Positions 17,831 through 22,212 of a stretch of DNA of 64,000 nt are shown in pieces; the stretch's first letter is position 1; each line of letters opens with the position of its first letter. The position numbers and the translations under genes are program-made. The notes beneath the pieces are model-generated. The model made no database searches. It was not told the DNA's origin and was given only the letters and a program-made list of their open reading frames with translations. Origin of the DNA: Schleiferia thermophila (GTDB lineage: Bacteria; Bacteroidota; Bacteroidia; Flavobacteriales; Schleiferiaceae); assembly GCF_003337435.1 (NCBI RefSeq), contig NZ_QPJS01000005.1, positions 1-64,000 on the forward strand, read 5' to 3'.

Positions 17831-18814
17831 ATGAAAAAAATTTACACGCTTGGATTGGCCCTTTGCATCGCATTCACAGCTTTTGGCCAGCAGAGAAAGA
17901 CAGGTAAAACCACTTACAAAAACCACCAAAATTTAACTCAACACTTCAAAAGTACAGGTGCCGAGGCAGTCAACGACACACTTTCGGCCAATGTTCTTCC
18001 TGGATGTAACCTTGGACCTACGCTCCTTCAGTCAACAAATGGAGGTTTTGTAGCCGGTACCAATGGATATGGAGATGTAGAAAAAGCTCAGCGCATTCAA
18101 ACCAATACACTGGGTACTATTCACTCAGTGCTGGTAGCTTTTGGCGCCAAGAAAATAGTTGGTACAGCTGACAATATTAATGCTATCATTTATAACGTAA
18201 ATGCAACCAGTGGCTCACCAAGTGGCACCGGCGTAGCTACTTCAGAAGCTGTAAGCGTATCCAATATTGATACCTCTGGACAATTCACTCGGTTTTCTTT
18301 TGCTACACCGGTCAGCTATTCGGGCGATTTCTTTGCCAGTATTGTGGTGTCTGGCGGCACCATCAACGATACTGTGGGAATATTGCATACCGGTGGAAAT
18401 TGTGGTGGCGGTTCGGCCTGGGAGCGTTGGGATACCGGTCAATGGTATGCCTTTAACGATCCTAACTCATGGGGCCCTAATACGGATATTGTGCTTTACA
18501 TCTTTGTCGAAGTAGAAAAATCTGGCAATATCGGTCTTGACAATGCATTTCTGCTCGACAGAAATTCTGTAAAAGTATTCCCCAACCCGGCACATGACCT
18601 GATTACCGTATCATACAAGCTGGCACAAGGTACTAAAGCGCTCTTTACCATTCACGACCTTACTGGCCGTACTGTTCTCTCCGAAGAGCTATCAGCCGCT
18701 TACAACGGTCTCAATGCTAAAAATATCCGAATTGGCCATCTGCCTGCCGGTGTATTCACCTACACGCTGAAGACTGCTACCCAATCCATCAGCGGAAAGT
18801 TGGTAATCCGGTAA
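17831..18814 (+). CDS. T9SS-sorted secreted protein of unknown function
   Basis: The 327-residue product starts with signal peptide MKKIYTLGLALCIAFTAFGQ. The body (about 40-240) is a beta-rich, Gly/Ser/Thr-rich domain, possibly a choice-of-anchor-like sandwich. The C-terminal 75 residues form a T9SS type A sorting domain: KVFPNPAHDLITVSY near 258, then GRTVLSEEL, LPAGVFTYTL and final GKLVIR. The ATG at 17831 is chosen over a TTG at 17807 because it starts directly with the signal peptide. A strong terminator follows. Confidence 0.82.
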   Translation: MKKIYTLGLALCIAFTAFGQQRKTGKTTYKNHQNLTQHFKSTGAEAVNDTLSANVLPGCNLGPTLLQSTNGGFVAGTNGYGDVEKAQRIQTNTLGTIHSVLVAFGAKKIVGTADNINAIIYNVNATSGSPSGTGVATSEAVSVSNIDTSGQFTRFSFATPVSYSGDFFASIVVSGGTINDTVGILHTGGNCGGGSAWERWDTGQWYAFNDPNSWGPNTDIVLYIFVEVEKSGNIGLDNAFLLDRNSVKVFPNPAHDLITVSYKLAQGTKALFTIHDLTGRTVLSEELSAAYNGLNAKNIRIGHLPAGVFTYTLKTATQSISGKLVIR

Positions 18815-18844
18815 ACCAGGTTTAAATTTATTTAAAGGTTGCTG

Positions 18845-18879
18845 ACCCGGAATCCCAGTGATTTCGGGTCTTTTATTTT
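18845..18879 (+). terminator. Rho-independent terminator of the T9SS protein gene
   Basis: ACCCGGAAT pairs with ATTTCGGGT (9 bp, one G-T wobble) around a 7-base loop, directly followed by CTTTTATTTT. It lies 30 bases after the stop codon. Confidence 0.75.
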
Positions 18880-19509
18880 CATGACAGGTGATCGCCGGTG
18901 ATTTGATCGGCTGATCGGGTTTTCTTTTTGTTTATGTTCTTTTTACAGACGTGTTTCGAATCATAGGCCAGTGTACTATTTGATTAATTGAATTTTTTGG
19001 ACCGTGGAAAAAGAGCAGGAAGTTCCTTCGGCTACTTGGGTTAAAAATCTGTAGTTGACTTGAATGGTTATTTGGGTTTTTGGTGCAGAACTTCATCTGT
19101 AATCTTCTGGTTGGATGTGATGCGGAGGAAGTAGTTATCAGTTTATGCATGCGTGCGTGTAGTCAACCTGCTGAAAACTGCTGTACACCTTTGGTGTAAA
19201 TATTTTTTTAGGTGCAGAGGGTGGTGCATCCGTTTAAACTTATGGCTTTTGAATGCTGGACCTGTAGGAATTATATCAGATGCTATGGTTGGGGCGGAAC
19301 TCTCTAATGAGCGGGAGATGAGTTGGTCTTTATATGCAAAGATTGCATATAGCAGTGATTTAATGATTTTTCTTAAATTCGAAAATTTTTAAGCAGGGTG
19401 TGGTGCCAAATGGTTTGCAGACAATGAGACCGGATGCTGATTGAAAATGTGTTGGGTAATTTGTGTTGTGGGTGGCATTCTGAAGGCACCTGTGCCGGAG
19501 TGATGTATT
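18880..19509. other. Gene-free interval with hairpins and a possible relic
   Basis: No coding region that I can support. A second, bulged GATC/CCG hairpin followed by GGGTTTTCTTTTTGTTT (about 18888-18931) looks like a backup terminator. TACACC-TTT-GGTGTA (19184-19198) is a tight hairpin followed by AATATTTTTTT. On the minus strand around 19070-19140 a short frame reads DNYFLRITSNQKITDEVL, reminiscent of the last strands of a T9SS tail, but it is preceded and followed by stops. This may be a decayed gene or chance. Confidence 0.4.
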
Positions 19510-19632
19510 GCGTGAGGGATGCGTAGGGCGCCCGCAGGGCGGTGCGCAGCACGGGAGCGAAGCGTACCCCGGAGCAGCCCGACCCCGCGCGGTAAGGCCG
19601 ACGGCAGGAGGCCGGCGCACGGGGGCACGCCC
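19510..19632 (-). repeat. GC-rich structured intergenic element (Bacteroidota GGGCGTGCCC...CCCTCACGC type)
   Basis: A 123-base block about three-quarters G+C in an AT-rich gap. Read on the minus strand it begins GGGCGTGCCCCC, has an internal GGGGTCGGGCTGCTCC, and ends GCATCCCTCACGC. It contains nested inverted repeats, e.g. CGCCC/GGGCG with a 3-base loop at 19529-19541 and GCCG/CGGC near 19597-19604. From memory, elements with the same ends and internal GGGTCGGGCT occur many times in other Bacteroidota genomes, always outside genes. No coding frame is credible. I see one copy in this window. Its function and mobility are unknown to me. Confidence 0.6.
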
Positions 19633-19666
19633 AAAAAATTTAAAATGAAGAAAATGGTGCAATAAA

Positions 19667-19674
19667 TATATTTG
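19667..19674 (+). promoter_or_regulatory. -7 promoter element of the BNR-repeat protein gene
   Basis: TATATTTG matches TAnnTTTG, with implied start near 19681 and ATG at 19699. The TTG at 19672 that opens the longest frame falls inside this element and so is not a likely start. No good -33 TTG is present, and the GC-rich element lies just upstream. Confidence 0.4.
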
Positions 19675-19698
19675 AAGGGTTTTAAGAAAAATGTGGCG

Positions 19699-22212
19699 AT
19701 GAGATTGCTGTGTTTGGTTTTTGCATTAATGGTCTGCGGCTCGGTCGATGGGCAGGTCTGGTATGATATGATTTTGAATGGGGAGCGAGATTTTCGGAAG
19801 ATTAGGGCACATGCTGAGGAGTTTTTTTCGCAGAAAGTCACCCGGGAGAGAGGGATTGGATACAATTGGTACAAACGGTGGGAATACCATCAGCTGCAGG
19901 CTATAGGGGAGGACAGTCTGCTGCCGGTGGTGGATGTAGCGGATGAATGGACTGCTTACATCAGCCGGCAAAGGAATAGACCTGAAAGCTTTGCGGGCAA
20001 TTGGGAACCATTGGGTCCTGTGGCCTGGTCCGTGCTGAACAACGGATACAGTCCGGGCCTTGGTCGGGTAAATTACATCTACCTTGATACGCTATACAGC
20101 GGAACGATGTATGTGTGTACGCCTTCAGGTGGACTTTGGCGCAGCTACGACGGAGGGGTCACCTATACGGTGCTTACCGACCAGCTGGCTTCAATAGGTT
20201 GTGGTATGGTGGTAGTGAATCCACTGGATACCAATGTATTGTATTTGGCTACGGGCGATAATTTCGGGTCGGATACCTACTCGATAGGGGTGCTTAAATC
20301 GACGGACTATGGCCAGACCTGGCAGCCAACGGGTCTTAGTTACGTGCAGTCGCAAATGGTGAGAATATTCAGATTGGTCATGCATCCAGTGGATACAGCT
20401 ACGCTTTTGGCGAGTACATCGCAAGGTATCTTTCGCACGACGGACGGGGGCTTGACATGGGCGCTGGTGAGCAGCCTGCAGGCGCGAAGTCTTGTGTATA
20501 ATCCAAAAAACCCGAATACGGTATTTGCTGCCTTTAAAACACTGATCAGAAGTCACGATTTTGGGGCTACTTGGATTCAGGTGACGGATACTGTGCCTCC
20601 GGCAAGCGCTGTGTCGAGAATGGAGGTGGCGATTTCTCCGTCAGATACGAGTGTGGTCTATCTGCTGATTGGAAATTCGGAGAATGGCTTTTTGAATGTG
20701 AGCCGTTCGGCTGATGGGGGTCATACTTTTGAAGTAAGGGCTACAACACCCAACATACTTCATCATTCGCTGCAGGGTACTGGTACGGGTGGACAGGCCT
20801 GGTACGATTTGGCCATCGCGGTGGATCCGGTAAATCCAAATATCGTTTACACTGGTGGTATCAACATCTGGAAATCGGTAAACGGGGGGCAGTCATTTGC
20901 CATTAATACGCATTGGGTATATACCAATCAAGGTTTGCCGTATGTGCATGCGGACATTCACTATCTGGGATTTTACAACGGGGCACTATATGCGGGCTGC
21001 GACGGGGGTGTCTATCGCACTACCAATGGAGGGGCCAGTTGGACGGATTTGTCGGAAGGATTAAAGATTACACAGGTCTATCGGCTGGGCACGTCGCATA
21101 CGCATCCGGACATAGTGCAGTTTGGGGCTCAGGACAACGGGAGCATGAGGAGATTTCCGGCTGGTACCTGGAAACAGGCCTTCGGAGCTGATGGAATGGA
21201 GACGGTGATTGACTATTCAAATCCAAATATTGCGGTGATTAGCTATCAGAATGGAGGCTTGCTGCTGACTATGGACGGTGGAAATTCGTTTACTGAATTT
21301 ATGAATGGAGTAAATCAGCCTTCTGGCTGGATTACGCCGTTTGTACTACATCCTACTGATCCGGAGCGCTGGCTGGTGGGTAGGCGTGCTGTGTGGGAAA
21401 CGTACGACCGTGGTGTAAGCTGGGGGACTATATCGCCGTCTGATAACGTAAACATAGGCGCTTTGGCCTGGTCAAAGTCTGATCCTCTGGTGATATACTT
21501 TTCGAAGGGCAATGTGCTGAGAAAAACTACCGATGGAGGTGGAACCTGGAGTATTGTGAATCAAGGATTGCCGTTTCAAAATATTTCGAGTATTGCCATC
21601 CACCCCACTCATCCAGATCATGTAGTGATCACGTATAGTTCATTTGCAGCCGGACAAAAGGTATATCGCACGCTGAACGGTGGTGCCACATGGACTAATA
21701 TTTCTGAGAACCTACCGAATTTGCAGGCTTGGTCGGTGATTTTTCAGGAGAATAGTCCATTGGATGCCATGTACCTGGGCATGGGAATCGGGGTGTATTA
21801 CCGCGACAGCACCATGGCGCAGTGGGAGCCTTTTTTCGATGGTTTGCCCAATGTGGCAGTAAGAGAGCTGGAAATAAATTACAATAACGGCAAGCTTTAT
21901 GCGGCCACCTATGGACGTGGTGTATGGTATAGCGATTTGAAATTGATAACTTCCGGCCTTTCAGATGGTGGTCTCTTACCTGCTGTGGAGGTCTATCCGA
22001 ATCCCTTCCGTTCGGAATTCAAGATAGCCGTGAGTTCCACCGGTGTAGTGGAAATATGCGACTTGTCTGGCAGAGTGATCTACGAAAGCCCGATAGAGAG
22101 TGATAAGGCTGTTCTCAAGCCAGGAAAACTGCCAGCAAGCATCTATCTACTAAAATTTCAAGATCGGCATGGACGCACTGTGATCAAAAAAATCGTCAGC
22201 CGAGGTGACTGA
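19699..22212 (+). CDS. Sortilin/BNR-repeat beta-propeller protein with T9SS sorting domain
   Basis: An 837-residue secreted protein: signal peptide MRLLCLVFALMVCGSVDGQ, then a long propeller region with about eleven Asp-box/BNR motifs (SYDGGVTY, STDYGQTW, TTDGGLTW, SHDFGATW, TTNGGASW, TTDGGGTW, TLNGGATW among them) spread over about 130-720. It ends with a T9SS type A sorting tail (VYPNPFRSEFKIAV near residue 767, GRVIYESPI, LPASIYLLKF). Such VPS10/sortilin-like propellers on T9SS tails are surface or secreted proteins; some are glycosidases (sialidase or xyloglucanase folds), but no catalytic site is evident. The ATG at 19699 is supported by the signal peptide and the -7 box. Confidence 0.88.
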   Translation: MRLLCLVFALMVCGSVDGQVWYDMILNGERDFRKIRAHAEEFFSQKVTRERGIGYNWYKRWEYHQLQAIGEDSLLPVVDVADEWTAYISRQRNRPESFAGNWEPLGPVAWSVLNNGYSPGLGRVNYIYLDTLYSGTMYVCTPSGGLWRSYDGGVTYTVLTDQLASIGCGMVVVNPLDTNVLYLATGDNFGSDTYSIGVLKSTDYGQTWQPTGLSYVQSQMVRIFRLVMHPVDTATLLASTSQGIFRTTDGGLTWALVSSLQARSLVYNPKNPNTVFAAFKTLIRSHDFGATWIQVTDTVPPASAVSRMEVAISPSDTSVVYLLIGNSENGFLNVSRSADGGHTFEVRATTPNILHHSLQGTGTGGQAWYDLAIAVDPVNPNIVYTGGINIWKSVNGGQSFAINTHWVYTNQGLPYVHADIHYLGFYNGALYAGCDGGVYRTTNGGASWTDLSEGLKITQVYRLGTSHTHPDIVQFGAQDNGSMRRFPAGTWKQAFGADGMETVIDYSNPNIAVISYQNGGLLLTMDGGNSFTEFMNGVNQPSGWITPFVLHPTDPERWLVGRRAVWETYDRGVSWGTISPSDNVNIGALAWSKSDPLVIYFSKGNVLRKTTDGGGTWSIVNQGLPFQNISSIAIHPTHPDHVVITYSSFAAGQKVYRTLNGGATWTNISENLPNLQAWSVIFQENSPLDAMYLGMGIGVYYRDSTMAQWEPFFDGLPNVAVRELEINYNNGKLYAATYGRGVWYSDLKLITSGLSDGGLLPAVEVYPNPFRSEFKIAVSSTGVVEICDLSGRVIYESPIESDKAVLKPGKLPASIYLLKFQDRHGRTVIKKIVSRGD

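Follow-up and report, generated by a model that had tools for sequence, protein, structure and literature searches.

A folded intergenic repeat of Bacteroidota that shares an arm with Flavo-1 and may act as DNA

A GC-rich element between two genes

The window (the whole 64,000-nt stretch of Schleiferia thermophila contig NZ_QPJS01000005.1 that was analysed) carries a gene for a T9SS-sorted protein that ends at 18814 and, as the next open reading frame (ORF), a gene for a sortilin-like BNR/T9SS protein that starts near 19672. Between them lies a compact element with a GC content of 0.79, whereas 22 of the 24 segments of 120 nt across 18800–20299 have values of 0.36–0.56 and the remaining two run into the element. 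A sequence-only reading had drawn attention to this GC-rich block in its lower-GC setting, and the boundaries it gave proved exact: a covariance model of the window type (R1), built from 30 copies with the window copy among them, matches 19510–19632 on the + strand with 108.3 bits, the span over which the GC content was taken. The minus-strand ends and the internal GGGGTCGGGCTGCTCC that it quoted are all found in the block.

BLASTN with the window copy returns 40 matches in the same genome (2.6 Mb, 23 contigs), 39 of them at least 105 nt long and one of 36 nt, a copy number far above chance. Two contigs (C2 and C6; L064, L065) stop at an identical base within a copy of the element, as though assembly had failed at the repeat.

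Table 1 Parts of the window copy and its flanks
Feature	Position	Strand	Basis
Whole element, GCGTGAGGGATG ... GGGGCACGCCC	19510..19632	+	39 near-full genome copies; R1 match
Terminal stem P1, 5′ strand GCGTG, pairs with 19626–19630 CACGC	19510..19514	+	Fifth-pair covariation
Terminal stem P1, 3′ strand CACGC	19626..19630	+	Compensatory changes, fifth-pair covariation
P2 arm: GGG/CCC, TGC/GCA, GNA/GGA internal loop, inner stem, three small hairpins	19516..19580	+	Covariation
Hairpin A, CGCCC-GCA-GGGCG	19529..19541	+	Copy comparison, loop survey
Hairpin B, GTGC-GCA-GCAC	19542..19552	+	GTGC/GCAC becomes GTAC/GTAC in L037
Hairpin C, GC-GAA-GC	19557..19563	+	AC-GAA-GT elsewhere in the family
P4 hairpin, free to vary in sequence while staying palindromic	19583..19624	+	Copy comparison
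5′ flank ATT; family preference, pyrimidines	19507..19509	+	Flank survey of pattern matches
3′ flank A-run; family preference, AAA	19633..19638	+	Flank survey of pattern matches

Compensatory changes support the fold

The family shares a frame, GCGTKA-GGGAT ... AGCCCGACCC-hairpin-GGGKMACGCC, made up of a terminal stem (P1), a long arm (P2) and a second hairpin (P4). Its consensus is 5′-YYY|GCGTK A GGG AT N GNA ... GGA N′ A GCCC GA CCC[P4]GGG K M ACGCC|C AAA, in which M is the partner of the first K, and N′ that of N. In alignment A1, which holds 30 of the 51 window-type sequences from four genomes, 96.8% of 990 cells conform to a 33-pair structure, a percentage favoured by deriving that structure from the same sequences. 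Cells changed on both sides number 83, compared with 25.5 in shuffles (none of 500 as high) and 5–21 when the partners are slid.

Two other tests are alignment-free. A pattern search of named-genome and viral loci gave 144 matches; in eight of them (L100, L114, L136, L222, L223, L225, L237 and L239) GCGTKA is followed by neither GGGAT nor GGCAT, and these were discarded as chance, leaving 136, of which 132 are unique. The pattern permitted all four combinations at the fifth pair of P1, which is G–C in 75 and T–A in 61 of the 136 with no mismatches; among the eight set aside it is G–C in five and G–A in three. At the variable P2 pair, 118 of 132 matches are Watson–Crick, with all four types present, compared with 49 expected by independence. 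A 15-pair core gives a similar result in 43 phylum-wide copies (68 double-changed cells, compared with 25.6 shuffled and 3–13 slid), and in two copies of the genome itself (L067 and L068) P4 has been replaced wholly with its pairing intact. Hairpin C shows no covariation in alignment A1 because both of its pairs are invariant across the 30 rows. Judged by these compensatory changes, the predicted frame is strongly supported. The full alignment holds 37 of the 39 near-full copies, two cut at contig ends being unused, and excludes L032 and L034, whose 3′ ends were out of reach.

Folding energy tells a different story. Scored against dinucleotide shuffles, the z values are −1.03 and −0.26 for RNA of the + and minus strands, and −0.33 and +0.66 for the corresponding DNA. 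The energy is not clearly below that of shuffles, so the case for structure rests on comparison between copies; the block had been called highly folded, but by energy it is no more so than its composition gives. The minus strand had also been singled out. The + fold is the better supported, on slight strand evidence: the DNA fold of the + strand recovers P1, outer P2 and P4 in both the minimum and the centroid, and the minus-strand DNA centroid retains little of this fold.

The arms vary in length and loop. One long variant (L043) has an element of 222 nt with a P2 arm of 171 nt; another (L032, in the genome G001) reaches 507 nt, its P4 consisting of eight tandem 41-nt units followed by the usual 3′ end, so the P4 arm tolerates several hundred nucleotides. 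The loops of hairpin A in 51 copies are GNA in 26, GNRA in 9, GNYA in 8 and other or unparsed in 8. Together with the GNA/GGA internal loop, these GNA loops resemble DNA mini-hairpins of the GCGNAGC type.

Distribution across the phylum

The window copy had been likened to a dispersed element seen in many Bacteroidota genomes, and this family is real. Besides the 39 near-full copies at home, a second genus (G001) has the repeat in 14 places (21 BLAST pieces). The window type (R1) is present in 13 of 395 phylum genomes and the general frame (model R2) in 8 of 41 genomes drawn across the phylum, S. thermophila counted, both being lower bounds on prevalence since stricter filters were applied and only some candidates were scored. 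Among ten chosen complete genomes nine have R2 matches, with numbers from 0 (G173) to 29 (G253); four of these genomes have 29, 21, 20 and 14 matches, of which 0, 5, 2 and 3, respectively, are partial and Flavo-1-only. A pattern scan of named genomes found at least 119 stretches, and among 80 with titles, 75 were read as Bacteroidota, one as a bacterium of unspecified group and four as other phyla. Three of the four are chance matches; the fourth is a well-formed element in a Fibrobacteraceae bin (L169), the sole non-chance titled match beyond Bacteroidota among the matches listed, and may reflect a binning error. Hosts among the matches listed include Flavobacterium, Pedobacter, Chryseobacterium, Aquimarina, Maribacter, Niabella and Algoriphagus.

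Copies are intergenic: none of 183 lies inside a chosen ORF of more than 900 nt, as called by a simple ORF finder.

Flavo-1 occupies one arm of the frame in many members

In many flavobacterial members, P2 is the Rfam family RF01705, the Flavo-1 ‘RNA’, which is listed in a table of Weinberg et al. 2010 (PMC2864571). A copy in F. psychrophilum (L154, 4151–4225) scores 46.9 bits with RF01705. Full elements with both outer ends exceed the gathering cut-off of RF01705 at the element in 13 of 20 loci and in 7 of 15 further loci; thus about half of the members with the same frame match the Flavo-1 model and half do not. Partial R2 matches in Flavobacterium and Chryseobacterium-type genomes correspond to RF01705 in all six sources scanned. 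The window copy has no RF01705 match at the gathering score of 42 bits, and at E ≤ 10 Rfam gives only the unrelated IRES_mnt (12.6 bits). The window type therefore seems to be a GC-rich, unlabelled branch of a partly known family, joined to Flavo-1 through intermediates that combine the frame with a Flavo-1 arm; we infer the link from these sequences and not from a direct score. The element had been presented as one whose function is not known to be described: the dispersed family stands, and its flavobacterial part was already catalogued as Flavo-1.

Flavo-1 and the element have in common the P2 arm (GAT-N-GNA-GYGG ... CRRC-GGA-W-AGC) and the same kind of dispersed copies. In the Rfam model, however, P1 is unpaired and most of P4 falls outside, whereas both are paired in the element. 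The RF01705 alignment of one flavobacterial element (L104) confines the model pairs to the P2 arm, a frame position that 19516–19580 occupies in the window copy. P1 and P4 are missing from some Flavo-1 copies, which end differently (tagccc ... gggaaa). Such Flavo-1-only copies (L418–L429) have an outer pair that is C–G, T–A, A–T or G–C, and by their sequences appear to be the same head on another tail. At one G001 locus, two element types lie near each other, the second with a P4 nearly identical to that of copy L056, which suggests, at the sequence level, an exchange of modules between copies. Among top-ranked search results of the open-access literature we found no recognizable description of the full frame and did not meet a DNA reading of Flavo-1.

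Wobble pairs are scarce

The Rfam label of Flavo-1 (Gene; sRNA) implies that the + strand is transcribed and that the element is a structured RNA, either an sRNA or a mobile untranslated-region module. In favour of this, RF01705 covers many flavobacterial members, and the median distance from the 3′ end to the next ORF is 45.5 nt among the 51 window-type copies (four genomes). These copies show a gene-orientation bias (21 versus 5, p 0.0025), which is absent in the phylum set (36 versus 29, p 0.46).

An RNA helix would tolerate G–U pairs, and these are nearly absent. Only 3 of the 990 cells are changed on one side, compared with the 83 changed on both. Of the 990 cells, GT and TG make up 5, whereas 15 tRNAs taken from the retrieved loci have 30 such pairs out of 321; counted among 958 standard pairs, the difference from the tRNAs has a Fisher p of 3e-14, and G–U pairs are about eighteen times rarer in the element. 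At the variable P2 pair, GT and TG are seen twice where eight are expected. In P4, single mismatches flanked by Watson–Crick pairs comprise 6 GT or TG and 5 CA beside 959 Watson–Crick pairs, and so show no strand preference for wobble there; this count extends helices by Watson–Crick pairs and sees only mismatches between two such pairs. One inner P2 pair runs the other way, with TG in 10 copies and CA in 2, a hint of + strand wobble that speaks against a DNA reading. Perfect arms of 15–16 bp, in six different sequences, occur in 10 of the 12 orthologous copies of one genus; the lack of one-sided changes among perfect arms follows from selecting perfect arms and carries no weight.

The loops and the neighbourhood also fit poorly with RNA. 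None of 35 tetraloops on long stems is GNRA or UNCG, and no gene or transposase recurs among 581 clustered flanking ORFs. A transcriptome study of F. psychrophilum (PMC9723704) found Flavo-1 hits at several 5′ transcribed regions and reports that this coincidence gave no real clues, the hits being sense or antisense and many lying outside transcribed regions. The evidence on RNA or DNA favours DNA roughly two to one, and we consider a structured RNA rather improbable. Scarce wobble could alternatively come from repair between the arms of the palindrome. Of the natures suggested from the sequence at the outset, a REP-like dispersed repeat fits best, and a folded RNA is disfavoured by the few G–U pairs and by the published Flavo-1 transcript data.

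Filled and empty sites

Of 30 loci read at the site of copy L093 in one Chryseobacterium-type genus, 12 contain the element, 12 are bare (a gap of at most 60 nt) and 6 have another filler; the 30 are the best-scoring of 60 genomes and hence favour filled sites. Filled and empty orthologous sites, which the sequence-only reading had proposed to look for, thus exist; a precise joint was not seen, as the empty sites are too diverged for one to be read exactly, and no target duplication was seen at this locus. Mean identity is 0.90 within G000, 0.79 within G001 and 0.72 between them, as for lineage-wise spread judged by sequence, and in a tree the S. thermophila copies form neither one clean group nor a clean split. 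Comparing all retrieved loci with one another by BLASTN gave no flank match of at least 80 nt ending near the element between different copies of this genome.

Twelve elements are kept at the L093 locus across species, and this retention also fits a local function. A chromosomal protein-binding site, acting as a supercoiling, boundary or segregation hub and held in place with spread being secondary, would account for it and for the position at gene borders. In G113, inverted element copies stand just outside both ends of an rRNA operon of about 6 kb (L305, L314, L328), which would suit such a role; a second element pair there has the same spacing and is 99.9% identical over the 1.9 kb compared, which suggests another rRNA operon. 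The occurrence is nevertheless patchy across the phylum (8 of 41 genomes, none in G173 against 29 in G253), and sites are both filled and empty within one genus, so we regard such a hub as unlikely.

A terminator-like hairpin with a T-run on the minus strand was found at the 3′ end of 8 of 37 S. thermophila copies, at the other end of 6 of 37 and in 2 of 37 of one shuffle, counts too weak to claim terminator targeting.

Candidate enzymes

Linkage to a RAYT had been suggested as a sign of mobility. With a RAYT-type protein of G041 as query (L075, 188 aa, putative subclass read from motifs), 80 of 395 phylum genomes have a hit at E ≤ 1e-20, but the pattern finds no element in any of 30 RAYT-type loci (±1.5 kb). 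The R2 model gives one weak match (E 0.015, L070) in 36 loci of Y1 transposases and none in 30 further Y1 loci with flanks of about 1.5 kb, a set that partly overlaps the 36. No autonomous version, with a gene between element halves, occurs in the fetched loci. The suggested linkage was thus not found, save for the weak match, where a divergent copy (L070, 2022–2102) follows the Y1 gene. This gene (L070, C1:430382–431145) is the only Y1 transposase hit of S. thermophila, and four copies of a different palindrome, AACGATTAAAATCGTTGG, bracket it; the palindrome has no further match in this genome. Searching the loci with a profile built on six Y1 proteins added only two (L192 and L195).

These observations bear on the possibility that the element is a REP of a RAYT or IS200-like Y1 transposase. 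Its way of life resembles that of REPs; genomes rich in the element have Y1 hits in 7 of 8 cases, and genomes poor in it in 4 of 10; and Quentin et al. 2018 (PMC6006769) mention ‘atypical secondary structures’ of unspecified kind beside Bacteroidetes subclass 2.6 Y1 genes. Against this stand, besides the near-empty locus surveys, G001 and G085, which carry the repeat and have no Y1 hit. IS200/IS605-derived elements show a lagging-strand orientation bias, whereas 74 copies in four genomes divide 37:37, with origins only weakly determined because they were estimated from weak skew; a replication-strand bias seen by eye in G253 was lost under skew-based replichores. A Y1 origin is accordingly very unlikely in our judgement.

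A proposed dispersed DNA element

We favour a dispersed, non-autonomous DNA element of Bacteroidota with a REP-like way of life, and give this reading a probability of about one half. The fold itself would be the information: the terminal stem GCGTK/MACGC would close a junction of two arms, P2 (of Flavo-1 type in many members) and the freely varying P4 hairpin. A trans-acting protein would recognize the folded single strand or an extruded cruciform, and would copy or move the element to gene borders, into sites that are pyrimidine|A-rich; copies inserted there could then persist for long. In this reading selection would act on the DNA rather than the RNA, and a dedicated enzyme would spread the copies. 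A bolder version is possible but doubtful: Flavo-1 would be the inner arm of Bacteroidota-wide folded-single-strand DNA elements and not an RNA family, the enzyme would be neither a Y1 nor a RAYT protein, and P2 heads and P4 tails would be exchangeable on a fixed stem.

Comparison with known repeats places the element near REPs. Both have many short palindromic intergenic copies in which structure is kept while sequence drifts, and the element is, as REPs are, high in copy number and intergenic. A REP or REPIN, however, is built on one hairpin of 20–40 nt, whereas the element has three helices in about 80–160 nt. REPs of the kind defined by Di Nocera's CGTC and GTAG repeats (PMC3733652) carry GTAG or CGTC as a tag at the hairpin foot, whereas the element ends in GCGTKA and KMACGCC with no tag; REPs come with RAYTs, and no convincing RAYT is linked to the element. 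MITEs are likewise short, non-coding, multi-copy and precise in their ends, but the element has only about 5 bp of terminal complementarity and a covarying interior, and its flanks do not match (YYY on one side and AAA on the other).

Integron attC sites end in RYYYAAC ... GTTRRRY and have a linked integrase. They were set aside as a candidate: in the element GTT comes first and AAC last.

Through the frame, an orphan motif catalogued as RNA becomes part of a larger element whose ends are defined, and this offers a direct route to deciding between RNA and DNA for Flavo-1. Should the DNA reading be true, Rfam would have one family to relabel, and REPs would have a counterpart particular to Bacteroidota, served by a putative enzyme. 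The wobble test (changes on both sides compared with one, with a tRNA control) is applicable to other orphan dispersed ‘RNA’ motifs.

Copies in viral contigs

BLASTN found no match to the window copy in phages or plasmids. The pattern has matches in 23 viral contigs, five of them chance by sequence. In four phage-like contigs (L224, L226, L231 and L233) the element lies about 0.1–0.2 kb from a putative terminase small subunit gene, and in a fifth (L230) about 1.8 kb from one. Two viral contigs (L220 and L238) bear well-formed elements among genes that do not look flavobacterial, and their host may lie outside Bacteroidota.
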